Assembly: GCA_013298895.1 (NCBI GenBank) | Contig: JAAFJM010000001.1 | Span: 1-64,000 of the forward strand | Source of the DNA: Bacteroidota bacterium | GTDB lineage: Bacteria; Bacteroidota; Bacteroidia; UKL13-3 | Length of the DNA stretch: 64,000 nt | Reading direction: 5' to 3' | Shown here: positions 9,795 to 19,293 of the stretch, piece by piece | How positions within the stretch are numbered: the stretch's first letter is position 1 | Layout of the letters: each line of letters opens with the position of its first letter | Translations under genes and position numbers: made by a program | The notes under the pieces: generated by a model | The model's database searches: none | Told to the model about the DNA's origin: nothing | Seen by the model: the letters and a program-made list of their open reading frames with translations, nothing else

Positions 9795-10433
9795 ATGGAA
9801 ATAGATAGTTATAAAGAAACTTTTGAAACTTGGAATAAAGTAGCTGTGTTGTATCAAGAAAAGTTTATGCACTTAGACTTGTACAATGAAACGTATGATT
9901 TTCTTTGTAACACATTGCCCAATGGGCATTCATCTATTTTAGAAATAGGTTGTGGGCCTGGCAATATTACCAAATACCTATTAAGTAAAATGCCTAATTT
10001 AAGCATACTTGCTACTGATGTTTCTCCTAATATGATTGCGCTAGCAAAAAGGAATAATCCAACCGCAAACTTTGTGGAAATAGATGCCAGAAATATTGAC
10101 CAAATCAACACAAAATTTGATGCAATTGTATGCGGTTTTTGTTTACCATATTTATCGCCTATTGATGCTGAAAAATTGATCCATGATGCCAACAATATAC
10201 TTCATAAAAATGGGCTTTTGTATATAAGTTTTGTGGCAGGAAGTGACGAAAAATCAGGGTATCAAAAAGGTAGTAGTGGTAATAGAACTTATTTTTACTT
10301 TCATGACTTAAGAAAACTTCATAAAATCCTTAATGCACATAATTTTGAAATCATTAAATCGTTTGAAATAAGCTATGAAAAACTTGACAATGAAATGGAT
10401 ATTCATTCTGTTATAATTGCCACGAAAACATAA
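9795..10433 (+). CDS. Class I SAM-dependent methyltransferase
   Basis: 212 residues, cytosolic. The SAM-binding motif I is ILEIGCGPGNIT (about 48-59); ILATDVSPNMIALAK follows with the acidic residue that contacts the ribose, and FVEIDARNID and FDAIVCGFCLPYLS give motifs II and III. The overall pattern fits the Methyltransf_25/ubiE-like group. The substrate cannot be read from sequence. The next gene begins 13 bases after the stop, so the two are probably co-transcribed. Confidence 0.88.
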   Translation: MEIDSYKETFETWNKVAVLYQEKFMHLDLYNETYDFLCNTLPNGHSSILEIGCGPGNITKYLLSKMPNLSILATDVSPNMIALAKRNNPTANFVEIDARNIDQINTKFDAIVCGFCLPYLSPIDAEKLIHDANNILHKNGLLYISFVAGSDEKSGYQKGSSGNRTYFYFHDLRKLHKILNAHNFEIIKSFEISYEKLDNEMDIHSVIIATKT

Positions 10434-10445
10434 ACTAATAATAGC

Positions 10446-11114
10446 ATGTATCATTTTTCATATTTTAAAGAAAAAGACAAACAAACCATTTTGGATTTTA
10501 TAGAAGAAAATCCTTTTGCTTTTATAACAGGGAGTTATTTATCAGGACAACAAGTTGCTACGCAAATACCCATTTTACTGGAGGAGCGCAATGGTGAACT
10601 TTTTTTGCAAGGACATATTATGCGAAACACCGACCATCATAAAGCCTTTGTAGAGAATCCAAACGCATTAATTGTATTTACAGGTCCAAGTTGTTATGTA
10701 AGTGCATCCTGGTATAGCAATCCGCAAATTGGTTCTACTTGGAATTATATGAGTGTGCATGTTTCGGGGCAAGTTAACTTTATGACCAATGAAGCACTAA
10801 TAGCTTTTATGCAAAAACTAACTCTGAAATTTGAAAAAGGTAATACACAATCTCTTACCTTTTATGATAATCTTCCTGAACAATTTTTAAGCAAAATGAT
10901 GCCAGCTATTGCAGGCTTTGAGATAAAAGTAGATAAGTTAGAAAATGTATTTAAGTTAAGTCAAAATAGAGATGAAAAAAGCTATAACAACATTATTTCA
11001 AAACTTCAAGAAATAGGTGGAAGTAGTGCTTTAATAGCTAATGAGTTGATAAAAAGAAAAGCAGAACTTTTTCCTGAAGGAGTAGAATGGGATCCCAACA
11101 GGTTTGATTCATAA
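10446..11114 (+). CDS. FMN-binding PaiB-like protein
   Basis: 222 residues with a split-barrel flavin-binding fold. Landmarks of the PaiB family: the N-terminal MYHFSYFKEKD, PFAFITGS, ATQIPILLEE, GHIMRNTDHHKAF and YVSASWYSNPQIGSTWNYMSVHVSGQ-type strands. PaiB of Bacillus was described as a negative regulator of sporulation and protease genes, but most family members have no tested role and no helix-turn-helix is seen here. It may be a flavin- or polyamine-related enzyme. It ends the run of genes before the multicopper oxidase; 216 bases of AT-rich DNA with no clear feature follow. Confidence 0.85.
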   Translation: MYHFSYFKEKDKQTILDFIEENPFAFITGSYLSGQQVATQIPILLEERNGELFLQGHIMRNTDHHKAFVENPNALIVFTGPSCYVSASWYSNPQIGSTWNYMSVHVSGQVNFMTNEALIAFMQKLTLKFEKGNTQSLTFYDNLPEQFLSKMMPAIAGFEIKVDKLENVFKLSQNRDEKSYNNIISKLQEIGGSSALIANELIKRKAELFPEGVEWDPNRFDS

Positions 11115-11330: not shown

Positions 11331-13046
11331 ATGAGAGACTGGTTCACAAATAATGTATTTAAAAAAGGTGTTGTTGCATTTTTAATGCTTTTAACAACCA
11401 ATTTATATAGCCAAACCTACAATAACCTATGGATACCTGATACCCTTTCAGGAACTACTTTTAACTTAAATATAAAAGACACATTTGCTCAAATAGTAAA
11501 TACCGGAAATCAAACCATTACTGGAGGTATTAATGGTAAATTTTGGGGTCCAACCATGTTTATTAACAAAGGTGATGTGGTTCACATGAATGTAAAAAAT
11601 AATTTAAACGATTCAACTACCGTGCATTGGCATGGCATGCATTTACCTGCTGTAATGGATGGAGGTCCGCATCAGATTATTCCTCCTGGCACTCTATGGC
11701 AACCTTATTGGGAAGTAAAAAACGATGCAGGAACTTATTGGTATCATCCGCATTTACACGAAATGGCGGAAGAACAAATGACCAAAGGTTTAGGTGGTTT
11801 TATGATTGTTAGAGACGAAGTAGAATCTAAACTTGCTTTACCAAGAACTTATGGAGTGGATGATATTCCTTTAGTACTTTCAGATAGAGATATAAGCACT
11901 AGTAACCAATTTGTAGTAGTGCCTTATGGCGATAGCATGATGACCAACATGACTTTGAGAGCACAATACACAGTACCGGCACAAGTGGTAAGATTTAGAA
12001 TTTTAAATGGTGGATTGGAGCGTTCTTATAATCTTGGATTTAGCGATGGTAGGTCGTTTCAAGTAATTGCTTCTGATGGTGGACTATTAACAGCACCAGT
12101 AACTGTTACAAAATACCTTTTACATTTGGGAGAACGCATTGAAATTTTAGTAGATTGTTCAAACGATTTGGGTAAATCAATTGATTTGAAAGCATACAAT
12201 TCTACATTAGCACAGAATGTAGCAGGTGGAGATTTTTTTCCTAATGGTCCTTTTGTAAACTATTTAGCACGTAAAGATTTTAATATTTTGCATATTAATG
12301 TTGGTGCTAAAACAAGCAATCCTATTTTAAATATACCTACATTTTTAAGAACTGTTACAACAATACAGGCTGCAAATGCAAGCATTACCCGAGCTTTAAC
12401 CATAAGCGATACCAATATTGTTGGTGTAACAGGTGCAGCATTTGTTATTAACCATAAATTATTTGATTATAATTATAACAACTATGATGTACCACTGAAC
12501 AATACTGAAATTTGGCAAATTACCAGTACCTCCAATTTTGGACATCCATTCCATATCCATGATGTGGAGTTTAATATTTTATCGGTTGATGGAGTTGCCC
12601 CAGTTGCTGCGCAAGCTGGTTTTAAAGATGTGGTTTTTGTGCCTAGTAAATCAACGGTTAAATTCATAGCCAAGTTTGATAATTATGCTGATCCGTTGCA
12701 CCCTTTTATGTACCATTGTCACATTGCTTTGCACGAAGACGAAGGCATGATGGGTCAGTTTATTGTTACAGATAAAACAAGTGGTATTAAATCAACTGAT
12801 AAATCTGATTTTTCATTGTATCCAAATCCTGCAAACGAAAAACTTTATATTTCATTTAACAACCAAGATACTAAGGTTTATTACATTTCCATTTTAAACA
12901 TAGTGGGTAAAGCTGTATTGATGTTACCTAGACCAGAATTAGGTAATGGAATTGATATTTCGAGTTTAAGCGCAGGAACCTATTTTGTGCAGCTAACCGA
13001 TGATAAAACCAAAGCTGTTACTGTAAAGAAATTTATAAAGGAGTAG
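11331..13046 (+). CDS. Multicopper oxidase with T9SS sorting domain
   Basis: 571 residues. A signal peptide (VVAFLMLLTTNLYSQ) is followed by three cupredoxin domains. All four copper motifs are intact: HWHG (99-102), WYHPHLH (137-143), HPFHIH (405-410) and YHCHIALHEDEGM (461-473). These give T1 ligands His405, Cys463, His468 and axial Met473, and the His set for the T2/T3 cluster. Residues about 493-571 are a type A T9SS domain (FSLYPNPANE ... VKKFIKE), so the enzyme should be exported to the surface or medium. Family members oxidise Cu(I), Fe(II), Mn(II), bilirubin or phenols with O2; no Met-rich CueO insert is seen. It starts the putative metal/redox locus. Confidence 0.93.
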   Translation: MRDWFTNNVFKKGVVAFLMLLTTNLYSQTYNNLWIPDTLSGTTFNLNIKDTFAQIVNTGNQTITGGINGKFWGPTMFINKGDVVHMNVKNNLNDSTTVHWHGMHLPAVMDGGPHQIIPPGTLWQPYWEVKNDAGTYWYHPHLHEMAEEQMTKGLGGFMIVRDEVESKLALPRTYGVDDIPLVLSDRDISTSNQFVVVPYGDSMMTNMTLRAQYTVPAQVVRFRILNGGLERSYNLGFSDGRSFQVIASDGGLLTAPVTVTKYLLHLGERIEILVDCSNDLGKSIDLKAYNSTLAQNVAGGDFFPNGPFVNYLARKDFNILHINVGAKTSNPILNIPTFLRTVTTIQAANASITRALTISDTNIVGVTGAAFVINHKLFDYNYNNYDVPLNNTEIWQITSTSNFGHPFHIHDVEFNILSVDGVAPVAAQAGFKDVVFVPSKSTVKFIAKFDNYADPLHPFMYHCHIALHEDEGMMGQFIVTDKTSGIKSTDKSDFSLYPNPANEKLYISFNNQDTKVYYISILNIVGKAVLMLPRPELGNGIDISSLSAGTYFVQLTDDKTKAVTVKKFIKE

Positions 13047-13145
13047 GAAAATTGTTAGATTGTTGGATTGCAACTTTCAATTTATAATTCACATATAACA
13101 TTTAATATTTCACCTCTAACTATTATCAACTAAAAACTAAAAAAT

Positions 13146-14501
13146 ATGAAAAAACACATCACTTTATTTAGCTTCATGCTAGCGGGTATGATACTGAATG
13201 CCCAAACCAATCCAATTATATTAAATTGGCTTCAAAACAATACTGTAACTGGCAGGCATTATGTAAAAGGAAACTCAACTCCAATAGTTGATGCTGCTTT
13301 GGCAAACTGCCAGAGTGTAAAATACTCCGCTACCTCGGTTTATGTAGCTACCAATAGTATTCCAACTTATATTACTGGCCCTTTTCAAGATGGAAATCCA
13401 TCCTTGGCTACTGCGCAAAATGGCATTTTTAAATTTCCTTTAAATCCAACTCAAAATACAGGTACCCCAACGGCTACCACTGGGGGAAATATTGGTTTAT
13501 TTATTAATGGAGTTGCACTTTTTGATTATAGAGATGGCGTATCATGGAGCAATGCAAGCCAAACACTTAAAGGTGGGCCTTCGGGCGGTGTGGGCGATAA
13601 TATATGGAATCGTGATGCAGTTGTGGCCGAACGTGTAGGTTTTGATTGCGCTAAAGCACATCCTGCCATGGGTAATTACCATCACCACCAAAACCCAAGT
13701 GCTTTTAGTTTAGACTTAAAAGTAATTTCAACAGTTTGTACATTATATGCCTCTGATGGATTATACGCCATCGATAGTACCAAACATTCGCCATTAATTG
13801 GGTTTGCTTACGATGGTTTTCCAATTTATGGTGCGTATGCTTATAAAAATGCAGATGGAACAGGTGGCATTTTTCGCATGAAATCAAGTTACACCTTACG
13901 TGATATAACTACTAGAACCACTTATGCAGATGGAGCAACAGTAACTGCCGGCCCTGCGGTAAGTATTACTTATCCTTTAGGTTATTTTAGAGAGGATTAT
14001 CAATACAATGTTCCTACTGCTTCGTCTCAAGATTATTTAGATGAACACAATGGTCGCTTTTGTAAAACACCAGAATATCCAAATGGTATTTATTGTTACT
14101 TTGCTACTGTAGATGAAAATTGGAATTCAGCTTATCCATACGTAGTAGGACCTACTTTTTATGGTGTAAAAACAGCTGCTAAAGTAACTAGCATTACCGA
14201 AACTGTAACAACTTACACTCCAAGCACCACAAGTATAAAAAGTGTGATTAACGCAGATAAAATTAATATATATCCAAACCCTGCTAGCGATGTAGTAGCT
14301 ATTCAATTAAACCATTTAACTGCCAATAATATTACTTTGGAGTTGTACGATTTAACTGGAAAATTTTTGCAAACATCGCAAATATTGCAAGGAAGCACCA
14401 TTACTTATTTTGATACTAGAACTTTATATGAAGGCACTTATTTGGTAAAAATTATAGACAATGGCAATGTTGTCACCAAAAAAATTGTAGTAGCAAAATA
14501 G
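13146..14501 (+). CDS. YHYH-family protein with T9SS sorting domain
   Basis: 451 residues, with a signal peptide (LFSFMLAGMILNAQ). The central domain carries features of the YHYH protein family: LFINGVALFDYRDG (118-131), DNIWNRDAVV, an expanded CAKAHPAMGNYHHHQNP (168-184) where the family motif reads YHHH instead of YHYH, HSPLIGFAYDGFPIYG and DYLDEHNGRFCKTPEYP. The His cluster suggests metal binding, but the biochemical role is not established. Residues about 368-451 are a T9SS domain (INIYPNPASD). It lies 99 bases after the multicopper oxidase, and YHYH proteins being encoded beside such oxidases suggests a shared redox role (inference). Confidence 0.88.
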   Translation: MKKHITLFSFMLAGMILNAQTNPIILNWLQNNTVTGRHYVKGNSTPIVDAALANCQSVKYSATSVYVATNSIPTYITGPFQDGNPSLATAQNGIFKFPLNPTQNTGTPTATTGGNIGLFINGVALFDYRDGVSWSNASQTLKGGPSGGVGDNIWNRDAVVAERVGFDCAKAHPAMGNYHHHQNPSAFSLDLKVISTVCTLYASDGLYAIDSTKHSPLIGFAYDGFPIYGAYAYKNADGTGGIFRMKSSYTLRDITTRTTYADGATVTAGPAVSITYPLGYFREDYQYNVPTASSQDYLDEHNGRFCKTPEYPNGIYCYFATVDENWNSAYPYVVGPTFYGVKTAAKVTSITETVTTYTPSTTSIKSVINADKINIYPNPASDVVAIQLNHLTANNITLELYDLTGKFLQTSQILQGSTITYFDTRTLYEGTYLVKIIDNGNVVTKKIVVAK

Positions 14502-14506
14502 ATTTT

Positions 14507-14545
14507 AAAAAACCTCCATTAAAAAGAATAAGGGAGGTTTTTATT
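14507..14545 (+). terminator. Terminator after the YHYH gene
   Basis: The arms AAAAAACCTCC and GGAGGTTTTT enclose a loop of about 15 bases. It lies before the TlpA-like gene start at 14557 and would separate the oxidase/YHYH unit from the thioredoxin genes, or act as a partial attenuator. Confidence 0.75.
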
Positions 14546-14556
14546 TAATAAAAACA

Positions 14557-15018
14557 ATGCGATTCAACATTTTCTGTATCTTATTAATTATTTCAATTAA
14601 TTGCAGTGCCCAACATATCCAAGTTATCAAATTCAATGAACTGAAGCAACGAGTTTTTAATCAATCGGATACCACTTATGTGGTAAACTTTTTTGCTTCG
14701 TGGTGTGCACCATGTTTAAAGGAGATTCCTGCTTTTTTGCAATTGATAGATAGCTCACAAAACAGTAAAACGAAAGTACTTTTGGTAAGTGTAGATTTTA
14801 AAACCGATGCCGAAAAAAATCTTGAACCTATCATAAATAAATACCAATTACCTCCTATTTACCTGTTAGACGAGCCCAATGGAAATATTTGGATAAATGA
14901 AATAGATAATAATTGGAGTGGTGCCATTCCAGCTACTTTAATAGTAAAGAAAAATAAGAAAAGAAAATTTATTGTAACCAGTTTAACATACCCTAAACTA
15001 ATTAAACTAATTAGATGA
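14557..15018 (+). CDS. TlpA-like thioredoxin-fold protein
   Basis: 153 residues with an N-terminal signal peptide (FNIFCILLIISINCSAQ). The thioredoxin active site is WCAPC (Cys50, Cys53) within VVNFFASWCAPCLKEIP, followed by LLVSVDFKTDAE and the cis-Pro region AIPATLIV. The family acts in the periplasm to reduce or exchange disulfides, often for cytochrome c or copper-site maturation. The gene overlaps the next by four bases (ATGA), so the two are translationally coupled. Its place after the copper oxidase suggests a helper role in metal-site or Cys maintenance (inference). Confidence 0.9.
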   Translation: MRFNIFCILLIISINCSAQHIQVIKFNELKQRVFNQSDTTYVVNFFASWCAPCLKEIPAFLQLIDSSQNSKTKVLLVSVDFKTDAEKNLEPIINKYQLPPIYLLDEPNGNIWINEIDNNWSGAIPATLIVKKNKKRKFIVTSLTYPKLIKLIR

Positions 15019-15629
15019 AAAGCTTAAAATTTACATTATTAATTTTTGCATTTGTTATTACCAACATGGCATTTGCACCCCAAAAACAAATAGTTAATGA
15101 CTTTTCATTAATGAATGTTGATGGCAATAAAGTTTCATTAGCCAATTATATGGATGCCAAAGGTTTTATTATTGTGTTTACTTGTAACCATTGCCCATTT
15201 GCAAAATTATACCCTCCTCGATTAAATGAATTAAACAACAGATTCAAACCTATGGGGGTTCCATTAATTGCCATCAGTTCTACCGATACCATGATGTACG
15301 AAGAAGATAATTATCCAAATATGGTTACCAAAGCAAAAGAGGAACAATTCAATTTCCCTTATTTGTTTGACGAAATGCAAACTGCTGCTAAAAATTTTAA
15401 AGCGCAAAAAACACCTCACGCTTTTGTAATTTGGAAAGAAAATAATAATTGGGTAGTTAAGTATAATGGAGCAATTGACGATAATGGCATGGAGCCAAAA
15501 CAAGTAACAGAACCTTATGTAGTCAATGCTGTGGATGCTTTATTGAGCAATAAAAAAATATTGGTTACCGAAACCAAATCAATAGGTTGCCAAATAGCCT
15601 TTAGAAAAAATAACCTTTACAAACCATGA
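15015..15629 (+). CDS. Secreted redoxin-domain (AhpC/TSA-type) protein
   Basis: 204 residues with an N-terminal signal sequence (FTLLIFAFVITNMAFAP). The thioredoxin-like domain reads FSLMNVDGNKVSLANYM and IIVFTCNHCPFAKLYPPRL, with a CNHC pair (Cys57, Cys60) where resistant peroxiredoxin-like proteins have their active Cys, then VPLIAISSTDTMMYEEDNYP and the cis-Pro KTPHAFVIW. The Pro normally after the first Cys is replaced. It is co-transcribed with the TlpA-like gene and overlaps the start of the broken gene at 15626. Periplasmic disulfide or peroxide chemistry is likely. Confidence 0.87.
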   Translation: MKSLKFTLLIFAFVITNMAFAPQKQIVNDFSLMNVDGNKVSLANYMDAKGFIIVFTCNHCPFAKLYPPRLNELNNRFKPMGVPLIAISSTDTMMYEEDNYPNMVTKAKEEQFNFPYLFDEMQTAAKNFKAQKTPHAFVIWKENNNWVVKYNGAIDDNGMEPKQVTEPYVVNAVDALLSNKKILVTETKSIGCQIAFRKNNLYKP

Positions 15630-15907
15630 AAATAATTTACTTCATTGTAGGCATGTTTGTTAATCAATTAAGCTTTAGCCAAACATCAGGTTCGGTAACA
15701 CAAGGACTTGGTACAACAACAGCCAATTTAATGCCTGCTTGTTCTAGTAACCATGTTACAACAATTATTACTATCAAATCAATAGATAATTGAATACATT
15801 TAGCTTTTTCGAATAAATGGGATTTAAGGGCCACCAATTACAGCAAACCTTTAGTTTTTACTAGTAAATTTTATGTGATGCCTAAAAAAGCATTTCAGTT
15901 TACATAA
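15626..15907 (+). pseudogene. Broken small secreted protein gene
   Basis: An ATG at 15626 overlaps the previous stop (ATGA), as expected for a real operon gene. The frame encodes a clear signal peptide (IIYFIVGMFVNQLSFSQ) and then hits TGA at 15791 (codon 56) and TAA at 15905 (codon 94); beyond that the same frame stays open to TAA at 15995. Between the stops it still reads as ordinary protein (NKWDLRATNYSKPLVFTSKFYV). Two nonsense changes in an otherwise intact frame suggest decay of a roughly 120-residue secreted protein. A real 55-residue peptide is the alternative. This accounts for the only gap above 300 bases (15630-16008). Confidence 0.55.
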
Positions 15908-16008
15908 AATCAAACGGTTAAAGCCAATCTAATTTTTATCAATTTGAGTTTTATTGATAATAATATTTTAGCTTATATACTCGTGGCAAATTTTTAATAA
16001 ATAAAATA

Positions 16009-17838
16009 ATGAAAAAATTTGTTAAAACGCTAATATTTACTGGCGTTTCAGGTGCTTTATTAGCACAAACTGATAGCAATAATTTACAACCTGTGGTTAT
16101 TAAAGAAAACCGTTTAGAGGTTAAAAATATAGCTAATAGTTTATTGGTGTTAAAAGCAGCTAGTTTTAACAAACAAGCCCATAAAAGTGTAGCCGATGTA
16201 TTGGGCCAAGTTTCGGGTATGGATATGCGCCAACGCGGCCCTGTGGGTGTGCAAACCGATGTATCAATTAGAGGTGGTTCATTCGATCAAATACAAGTGC
16301 TTTGGAACGGACTAAAGTTAAACGATGCGCAAACAGGTCATCATAACATGAACTTGCCTTTTCCAACCGAAGCCATTGAAAATATTGTAATCAGTAAAAA
16401 CTCTGCTGCACGCAAATATGGCTTAAATGCCTACAGTGGTTATATTAATTTAGTAACACAAGTGCCCAAGCAAAATATAGTCTATGGTGGCTTTATGGCA
16501 GGCGATTATGGTTTATGGGCTGCACATTCAGGTTTATCGTTTAGGAAAAACAATTGGGGGCACCATATTTCGCTTAAAAATACCGAAAGCAATGGTTATA
16601 CCACCAATACTGATTTTAAAACCAAAGAAATTTTTTACCAAACTGAGTATAAAAAAGGCAATTACCAGTTAGATATTTTTGGTGGATATGCTGAAAGAGC
16701 CTTTGGTGCAAGGGGTTTTTATGTACCTAATTCCACCGAGTTTGAAACTACCAAAAGTGGTTTTGTTGGGGTGAAAAATAAATATAAAGTTGGCAATTTT
16801 ACTTTTTTGGCACAAGGCTATTACCGTAATCACGATGATAATTATATTTATTTGCGTGCCAACCCAAATGCATTTACTAACCAACATTATACCAATACTA
16901 ATGGTGCTGAATTGCATGCCACATACAGCAGTAAGTTAGGTGTAACGGGTCTTGGTTTTGAATGGAGGCAAGAAAATTTAAATAGTTATAATTATTCAGG
17001 TAATGCACGCAAGGCTCAGCTAGGTAATAGAAGTCGCCAAATAAATGGTTTTTTTGTGGAGCATCAGTTTGTGTTTTATAAAAACCAAATTAACCTTACA
17101 CCAGGTTTTTATACCAATTTGCTTAACGGAAGCAGTTTCGATTTGTTTCCAGGTTTTGATTTTACATACAAAGCCATGCGAAATATTACCATTTTTGGTA
17201 GCTTAGAAAAAGCCATGCGCTTGCCTACTTTTACCGATTTATATTACAGTGGTGCAACCAATATTGGCAATGCTCAGTTGGTGGCAGAACAATCCATTAA
17301 CTCTGAAATAGGAGTGGAGTACAAGAAAAACAATTATTATTTGGCAGTTTCGTATTTTAATAAAAACTCAAACAATACCATTGATTGGGCCAAGCAAGCC
17401 GATAGTTTAAAATGGCAGCCACTAAATATTAACCATGTGCAAACCGAAGGTTTGGATGTGGCTTTTAGTTATTTTACCAAAGGTGTTTTAAATAAATTTT
17501 CAGTGGGATATACTTATATAGATATGCAATTGGTAAATACTGAAAACTATAAAAGTAGATATGCATTGAGCAATTTAAAACACCAATTAATTGTTAGTGT
17601 TTCGCTAAAATTGCCTTATCAGTTTTTATTAACCACTAGCTTTAGGCACATAGAACGTGTTGTTTTGGTTGATTATCAATTATTAGATGCACGACTAAAT
17701 TGGAGCCATAAATCCATTACGGCCTTTGTAGATATAAGTAATATTCTAGATAAAAAGTACTTAGAAGCAGGTTACGCTCCTATGCCTGGCACTTGGAGCA
17801 GCGCGGGAATTCAGTTTAAAATAAATTACAAGAAATAA
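16009..17838 (+). CDS. TonB-dependent outer-membrane receptor
   Basis: 609 residues. The signal peptide (FVKTLIFTGVSGALLAQ) leads into a plug domain: QPVVIKENRLE (TonB-box-like region), VADVLGQVSGMDMRQRGPVGVQ, VSIRGGSFDQIQVLWNGL, IENIVISKNSAARKYG. The rest (about 160-609) is a 22-strand-type barrel with alternating aromatic strands and ends in a short strand, IQFKINYKK, after the conserved KKYLEAGYAPMPGTW. No carboxypeptidase-like N-terminal domain and no SusD partner are present, so it resembles a BtuB/metallophore-type receptor more than a SusC. The gene order suggests import of a metal or metal chelate (inference). Confidence 0.93.
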   Translation: MKKFVKTLIFTGVSGALLAQTDSNNLQPVVIKENRLEVKNIANSLLVLKAASFNKQAHKSVADVLGQVSGMDMRQRGPVGVQTDVSIRGGSFDQIQVLWNGLKLNDAQTGHHNMNLPFPTEAIENIVISKNSAARKYGLNAYSGYINLVTQVPKQNIVYGGFMAGDYGLWAAHSGLSFRKNNWGHHISLKNTESNGYTTNTDFKTKEIFYQTEYKKGNYQLDIFGGYAERAFGARGFYVPNSTEFETTKSGFVGVKNKYKVGNFTFLAQGYYRNHDDNYIYLRANPNAFTNQHYTNTNGAELHATYSSKLGVTGLGFEWRQENLNSYNYSGNARKAQLGNRSRQINGFFVEHQFVFYKNQINLTPGFYTNLLNGSSFDLFPGFDFTYKAMRNITIFGSLEKAMRLPTFTDLYYSGATNIGNAQLVAEQSINSEIGVEYKKNNYYLAVSYFNKNSNNTIDWAKQADSLKWQPLNINHVQTEGLDVAFSYFTKGVLNKFSVGYTYIDMQLVNTENYKSRYALSNLKHQLIVSVSLKLPYQFLLTTSFRHIERVVLVDYQLLDARLNWSHKSITAFVDISNILDKKYLEAGYAPMPGTWSSAGIQFKINYKK

Positions 17839-17950: not shown

Positions 17951-18544
17951 TTGAAAAAGGTTTTTTGCATATTGTTTATATTAACTCAATTAAGCACTAG
18001 CGCTCAGTTTAAATTGGGTACCTTTGGCGTTGGCGCCAATACCGATATGAAGTATGATAGATATGATTATGATTATATTGGCAATATCAACTTAGGTTTA
18101 AGTGCCAGTGTTTTTTTATCACCTAAAATCGAATTTGGTTTAGGTACTTCAAGTACTAATATTATTTCAAATATTAAAAGTATAGACTCGGATAATTGGG
18201 GCTATGCAACTTATTTGACTTATTATTTTCCAGTTAACTCAAAAACAGGGTTTAATAACCAAATATTATGGAGTTACAGTAACAGAGGTAAGAAAGATGT
18301 TTTTGTATTTACCAATGGAGTTTTAGAAAACAATTTGGGATTTTATATGATGCTTTATAAGGGCTTAAACATAAATGTAAAGTATTCCATTTTAAGCTAT
18401 AAAACCAGTACTTACTCTTCAAAAAGTTCTGATGGAAATATGAATCAAAATACCCAAGAATTTAATTTAAATTTAAATCCATTGTATATTTTAAATGCCT
18501 TTCAAATTGGCTTGTCTTACTATTTTAATACCACAACACCATGA
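17951..18544 (+). CDS. Small outer-membrane barrel protein (first of a pair)
   Basis: 197 residues from a TTG start at 17951; no ATG nearby keeps the signal peptide KKVFCILFILTQLSTSAQ. The mature part is alternating beta strands with Gly/Tyr-rich turns (GNINLGLSASVFLSPKIEFGLG, AFQIGLSYYF at the end), as in an eight-stranded porin-family barrel. It overlaps the next gene by four bases (ATGA) and is therefore co-translated with it. No enzymatic motif is visible. Function unknown. Confidence 0.8.
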   Translation: MKKVFCILFILTQLSTSAQFKLGTFGVGANTDMKYDRYDYDYIGNINLGLSASVFLSPKIEFGLGTSSTNIISNIKSIDSDNWGYATYLTYYFPVNSKTGFNNQILWSYSNRGKKDVFVFTNGVLENNLGFYMMLYKGLNINVKYSILSYKTSTYSSKSSDGNMNQNTQEFNLNLNPLYILNAFQIGLSYYFNTTTP

Positions 18545-19293
18545 AATTTTATGCATTAATAATATTCACTTTAATAAATGCAAGCCTTTGCCGAGCTCAA
18601 TTTGGTAAGGGATCTCAAATGTTAAGTGGAAATGTGAATTTTGATTTAGCAAGTTCCAAAAATAGTACTGAAGATTATGTGAGTCCTTTTACCAAAAACA
18701 ATAACGAGGAAGATAAATATGGTTTTGGTATAGAGTTAGGATATGGAAAGTTTAAAAAAGAAAATACGGTTTGGGTATTCGGTTTGGGATATTCGTATAT
18801 GCTATCTAAAGTATATCAAACTCTTTCTGATACTGGCAGGTCGGTTAAAACAAACAGTAAAAACGCTGATTATAAATATACCTTATTTGCCGAAAATCTT
18901 AATTTTATCCCTATAAAAAACAATTGGGGTTTAACCTATAGCTTTAAAAGCTTATTGGCGTATAATACTTTAAAAAGTAATTCAAAAAGTAATTACTATT
19001 TTAATTACAATGATTCAAGTTTTATTGGCGAAAATAGTTCTGATGGTGCCAATTATCTAGTATCGTTTTCAGGAAATTTGGGTGCTTATTATAATATAAA
19101 CAAACACTTTTTACTTTTTAGCCAATTAAATGTGGTTACTGCCAATTTGAACTTTTTTAATAACACAAACACTTATTTGGGTAACGTGCGAAAAACAGAA
19201 AATGCTGGTTTTGGCTTTGATTTAGTGGGTGCATTAACTCCAGCTTTTAAATTGGGCGATATAAGTATTGGTATTCAGTATTTAATTAATTAG
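18541..19293 (+). CDS. Outer-membrane barrel protein (second of a pair)
   Basis: 250 residues with the signal peptide YALIIFTLINASLCRAQ. Repeated amphipathic beta strands (YGFGIELGYGKFK, VWVFGLGYSYML, LVSFSGNLGAYYNI) and a final strand ISIGIQYLIN support a porin-family barrel. It follows the 197-residue barrel protein with a four-base overlap. Both proteins share GFG/GLGYSY style strands, so an old duplication is possible but needs alignment. The next gene, a Crp/Fnr regulator, starts 59 bases later. Confidence 0.83.
   Translation: MKFYALIIFTLINASLCRAQFGKGSQMLSGNVNFDLASSKNSTEDYVSPFTKNNNEEDKYGFGIELGYGKFKKENTVWVFGLGYSYMLSKVYQTLSDTGRSVKTNSKNADYKYTLFAENLNFIPIKNNWGLTYSFKSLLAYNTLKSNSKSNYYFNYNDSSFIGENSSDGANYLVSFSGNLGAYYNINKHFLLFSQLNVVTANLNFFNNTNTYLGNVRKTENAGFGFDLVGALTPAFKLGDISIGIQYLIN

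Follow-up and report, generated by a model that had tools for sequence, protein, structure and literature searches.

In the methanotroph pair of MbnP and MbnH, it is MbnH that reportedly performs the change of Trp to kynurenine in MbnP. Replacement of the axial Met of bacterial cytochrome c peroxidases by Tyr is of the MauG type, while a Met-rich insert is the mark of CueO as a cuprous oxidase. It has been reported that a Trp turned to kynurenine binds copper in MopE and CorA, that a di-haem gene is co-transcribed with them, and that both are repressed by copper (PMC3912023, PMC3621798); MbnP–MbnH pairs themselves have been termed mysterious partners (PMC3621798). The YHYH domain has been called enigmatic and is regarded, as a prediction only, as a Zn-dependent hydrolase (PMC7824862), and in phages it is predicted to be a host-recognition domain (PMC7029224). 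In the literature searched, no paper linked YHYH to a multicopper oxidase (MCO), and YHYH was not found in combination with cytochrome c peroxidase, T9SS or purple acid phosphatase.

The window, i.e., the whole stretch of 64,000 nucleotides analysed here, carries an MCO gene followed by genes for a YHYH protein, a TlpA-like protein and a redoxin (Table 1). The sequence-only reading of this stretch had joined these four genes and the next TonB-dependent receptor into one unit, and profiles confirmed the five open reading frames and their families. The best reading of the locus, in which we place about even trust, is a module for copper handling and oxidation at the cell surface. Positions 11331–16000 are taken here, on evidence that leaves the matter evenly poised, as one relocated fragment of a dispersed module with the core MbnP–MbnH–YHYH. 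In the best reading, its accessory genes are the MCO (sometimes sulfatase-fused), TlpA, the redoxin, two purple-acid-phosphatase-like (PAP) proteins, a second YHYH protein (YHYH2), C10 and Lcl_C, many of them T9SS-tailed.

Table 1. Features of the MCO–YHYH locus and its flanks, in window positions.
Feature	Position	Strand	Basis or remark
Left flank: methyltransferase and FMN-binding protein	9795..11114	+	Also near the receptor in module-less G036
CueO-like MCO with T9SS type A sorting tail	11331..13046	+	Pfam/NCBIfam, PDB, Cu motifs
YHYH protein (PF14240) with T9SS tail	13146..14501	+	Profiles, alignments, AF2 model
Intrinsic terminator in the YHYH/TlpA gap	14508..14546	+	Also in three relatives, stem differs in two
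TlpA/thioredoxin-like secreted protein, WCAPC	14557..15018	+	Paired with redoxin in relatives
AhpC/TSA-redoxin-like secreted protein, CNHC	15015..15629	+	4-bp overlap with TlpA stop
Pseudogene of 414-aa C10 T9SS protein	15626..15999	+	Profile score against shuffles
TonB-dependent receptor, flank gene outside the module	16009..17838	+	G036 flanks, linkage survey
Right flank: two secreted proteins accompanying the TonB receptor	17951..19293	+	Locus comparison

The YHYH protein matches PF14240 with 194 bits, over the gathering score, and has a conserved His motif; H179, H181, H214, D223 and H301 are invariant in its orthologues, and Y178, H179, H181 and D223 are invariant in a diverse YHYH set. 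Sequence search found no PDB relative of YHYH. An AF2 model based on a diverse alignment that included viral relatives reached a pTM of 0.80 and a pLDDT of 72, and its comparison with solved structures gave zero fold matches, models of viral YHYH proteins being the sole matches; an AF2 run on 58 close orthologues, with a pLDDT of 45, was set aside. The domain is found in 463 phage records and in more than 500 viral stretches. In cyanophages it forms fusions with proteins of the tail or baseplate; the invariant His/Asp core is common to bacterial and phage members. Up to three YHYH domains per cyanophage genome were observed, and many marine viral contigs carry the domain too, mostly annotated as hypothetical. 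At L118, L132, L137, L142, L152, L156 and L171, the YHYH proteins are longer (720–911 aa), additional repeats separating the domain from the C-terminus.

The metal theme of the sequence-only reading is likely to hold, and the MbnP–MbnH pair, as the constant partner of YHYH in genomes, narrows it to copper, the metal suggested by the protein families. In the 80 named loci, those with the greatest similarity to the query, the genes within the fetched flanks of YHYH included MbnH in 60, MbnP in 54, the MCO in 19 and the redoxin in 14. In 49 of these 80 loci, MbnH is the gene immediately upstream of YHYH and has the same orientation, with a median gap of 51 bp and 40 gaps below 100 bp; the gene 3' of YHYH comes from 36 different families in both orientations, and such variable downstream neighbours indicate that the MbnH–YHYH linkage is more than a slowly changing neighbourhood. 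Culturable carriers of MbnP–MbnH–YHYH include Flavobacterium sp. WG47 (L179) and F. sedimenticola YZ-48 (L177). Among 57 genomes of one order, YHYH-type MbnH is present in 33 of the 34 genomes with YHYH and in 1 of the 23 others (Fisher p 1.5e-13), and MCO of the window type in 16 of 34 and 0 of 23 (p 5e-5), where the classes were set by identity and score, the genomes are related and not independent, and the p-value is a guide only. YHYH and YHYH-type MbnH are on different contigs in 10 of the co-occurring genomes, and in the two exceptions, G014 and G060, the matches are near contig ends. A PF14240 match occurred in only 10 of 118 evenly sampled Bacteroidota genomes, and MbnP or MbnH adjoined four of the seven strong YHYH hits outside the window's own genome, in flanks that were short.

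MbnP and MbnH are absent from the window, and in this genus they are usually found on other contigs. A search of the contigs of the window genome, together with fetched regions, located the MbnP–MbnH pair on contig C48 and the order PAP-PAP-YHYH2-Lcl_C on contig C36; with these missing parts, the module is spread over three loci in this genome, and the unit as first drawn had missed its main partners on another contig. A Ca-type cation P-ATPase gene follows MbnP–MbnH in the same genome (L207:2923-5454).

The MbnP on C48 scores 139.7 bits against PF20243 (cut-off 27) and 35.5 bits against the NCBIfam equivalog TIGR04052, below its cut-off of 140, and is MbnP-like rather than the equivalog; no PDB relative was found at E 0.1. 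Its invariant residues are W136, W138, M134 and H164, which include a WxW motif. Similarly, MbnH reaches 210.5 bits against TIGR04039, below 362.85 yet above its MauG model score of 174.8; two CxxCH motifs are present in 80 of 80 MbnH proteins, and Tyr stands at the position of the bCcP axial Met in 77 of 80. As neither protein reaches its NCBIfam equivalog cut-off, a role in copper is assigned here by transfer from distantly related proteins; by this analogy, copper binding by MbnP of the YHYH type is probable and MbnH is probably the enzyme that matures it. In 27 of the 46 loci with enough upstream sequence, MbnP is preceded within four genes by an ECF sigma gene and a Spy-like gene, and a gene for a short putative membrane protein (~87 aa) often separates the two. 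The Spy-like protein, of 150 aa, gives profile matches to Spy (3oeo, E 3e-4) and, weakly, to NccX (4clv, E 0.11), and no Pfam match above cut-off. Metal sensing by this block is suggested by analogy. Examples of the ECF sigma, short protein and Spy/NccX-like order are L209:7707-8978 and L215:8876-10147, and many named loci have it. In the window genome, the block was not seen beside MbnP, which lies near the contig start.

In the copper-handling reading, MbnH, as a di-haem protein with the MauG-type Tyr, would oxidise the conserved Trp of the WxW motif of MbnP and thereby create copper binding, as in MopE and CorA, and the modification of MbnP would presumably be the conversion of Trp to kynurenine. 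The T9SS would bring both the MCO and YHYH to the cell surface, where the MCO, which would require copper, would carry out the oxidation step, and YHYH, a putative His/Asp metalloprotein, would probably either act as a hydrolase or bind metal. TlpA and the redoxin would act as thiol partners in the periplasm, in smaller amounts because of the terminator before them, and the ECF sigma factor, the short putative membrane protein and the Spy/NccX-like protein, where present, would switch the set in response to envelope metal. The direction would be the acquisition and use of copper rather than detoxification. A further proposal, offered tentatively and more doubtful than probable, is that YHYH is a surface enzyme dependent on MbnP–MbnH copper chemistry and, with the MCO or MCO–sulfatase and the ECF-sigma metal sensor, forms an undescribed extracellular metalloenzyme system of Bacteroidota.

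The MCO consists of the domains Cu-oxidase_3, Cu-oxidase, Cu-oxidase_2 and Por_Secre_tail by Pfam/NCBIfam profiles. All four of the copper motifs claimed for it were found (HWHG 99, HPHLH 139, HPFHIH 405 and HCH 462), and the axial Met is also present; T9SS sorting of the MCO and YHYH was equally borne out, Por_Secre_tail, which denotes T9SS type A cargo, being above cut-off in both. CueO is its best PDB match (E 7.8e-79), and the best NCBIfam model is CueO NF008205, with 358.9 bits, under the equivalog cut-off of 525. Inspection of the sequence found the Met-rich insert to be absent, with zero Met in residues 286-370.

Copper handling alone leaves the hydrolases (sulfatase, PAP and Lcl_C) unexplained. 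The main rival, which we consider possible but rather unlikely, is the breakdown of an organic substrate, in which sulfatase-family proteins, PAPs and YHYH would cut esters, a laccase-like MCO would oxidise the freed phenol and MbnP–MbnH would supply Cu. It is favoured by four loci (L145, L153, L156 and L171) in which the MCO and a sulfatase-family domain form a single ORF of 1115-1212 aa beside YHYH, by the PAP pair, Lcl_C and second YHYH of the long version, by the lack of the Met-rich insert and by the published prediction of YHYH as a Zn-dependent hydrolase (PMC7824862). However, MbnP–MbnH are the most constant partners of YHYH, and many loci carry MbnP–MbnH and YHYH but no MCO, sulfatase or PAP; moreover, no SusC/SusD-type carbohydrate-use genes recur beside the module in the relatives fetched. 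The earlier claim that the surface oxidase acts on a metal or siderophore-like compound found no direct support: the MCO is without the Met-rich insert, and the sulfatase fusion would fit an organic substrate equally well. Copper detoxification, with the MCO as a CueO-type cuprous oxidase and the set as a copper tolerance island, is improbable: it accords with CueO as the best PDB and best NCBIfam match, the latter below cut-off, but not with the missing insert or with a T9SS surface location instead of the periplasm, and no CopA/CusCBA-type genes were recognised in the block or recurring beside it. In addition, MopE and CorA, the precedents for MbnP/MbnH, are copper-repressed (PMC3912023, PMC3621798).

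The MCO–YHYH–TlpA–redoxin order is kept in several genera in a comparison of about 160 loci, so the first four members of the unit originally drawn do belong together. The terminator after YHYH is real, with counterparts in relatives, and the ATG of TlpA follows it by about 10 bases; because the terminator sits just before this start, transcripts of TlpA and the redoxin probably arise from weaker read-through or from a promoter inside YHYH. The coupling of these two genes was likewise upheld by their overlap and by their pairing in relatives. The small secreted gene described as broken is truly so, and it could be identified further as a C10 pseudogene, of which the first ~60 codons are recognisable, followed by stops and degraded sequence. 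With the C10 profile, the remnant scores 31.5 bits here and that of a sister genome 41.7, whereas none of 2000 shuffles scored above 12.6; profiles of the other module genes (MbnP, YHYH, MCO etc.) were tried on the remnant, and only C10 fits. Intact C10 is located one gene (YHYH2) past the redoxin in L162 and beyond the PAPs and YHYH2 in L110, L112 and L113.

In the nearest relative, G044 (L069), the block occupies the same site beside the receptor and has a sulfatase gene between the MCO and YHYH, which the window is without. Elsewhere the block has other neighbours: it adjoins an FKBP gene in G040 and runs on into PAP-PAP-YHYH2-C10-Lcl_C in G038, G039 and G043. In the sister genome G036 (L216), the two flanks lie two unrelated genes apart, and the MCO, YHYH, TlpA and the redoxin are all absent between them; the left flank retains the FMN-binding protein (97%) and a shortened methyltransferase, and the right flank the TonB receptor (91% identical) followed by the same two downstream genes. 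Receptor orthologues are present in 12 of 64 genomes (E<=1e-30) and lie apart from YHYH except in the window genome and G044. Conserved linkage of the receptor to MCO/YHYH thus failed the test, and the receptor is an unrelated neighbour outside the unit. The first proposal, which linked oxidation of a metal or siderophore to uptake by the TonB receptor alongside, is consequently very improbable and largely refuted by gene context, although the receptor adjoins the block both here and in the sister genome G044. A second, diverged MbnP–MbnH pair was observed on contig C16 of the window genome (L208:5874-10829), together with a HYC_CC_PP protein, a copper-chaperone-like HMA protein and a 755-aa TonB receptor. 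The MbnP–MbnH–HMA–receptor set recurs in sister genomes (L210, L218, L220, L221 and L222), and the C16 pair may be a better candidate for TonB-linked copper uptake than the window receptor.

The linkage and near-perfect co-occurrence of YHYH and MbnP–MbnH give each a testable partner. Two questions can now be posed: is MbnP or YHYH a substrate of MbnH, and is copper or zinc bound by YHYH? The pairing would also define a set of genes for copper-dependent surface chemistry in freshwater Bacteroidota, and would open a bacterial route to a domain that very many cyanophages carry.

Compared with known systems, MbnP/MbnH, MopE/SACCP and CorA/CorB of methanotrophs are the same pair of genes, one encoding a surface protein that binds copper and the other a MauG-like di-haem enzyme, and the Bacteroidota MbnP/MbnH have in common with them the WxW motif, the conserved Trp/His and the Tyr that replaces the bCcP axial Met. 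The Bacteroidota pairs differ in that they score below the NCBIfam cut-offs, are linked to a T9SS-tailed YHYH and often to an ECF sigma/Spy-like block, and, in these loci, lie outside any methanobactin operon. The order of ECF sigma factor, short putative membrane protein and Spy/NccX-like protein resembles CnrYXH/NccYXH, but the Spy-like protein is unrecognised by Pfam and the block does not adjoin the window genes. The MCO is similar to CueO, its best structural match, in its three cupredoxin-type domains, four Cu motifs and axial Met, and is distinguished by T9SS surface export, the lack of the Met-rich insert and, sometimes, a sulfatase-family fusion. Finally, bacterial YHYH and the YHYH of cyanophage structural proteins belong to the same Pfam family and conserve the same His/Asp core, whereas the bacterial protein stands alone, is secreted, carries a T9SS tail and has MbnP–MbnH as neighbours.
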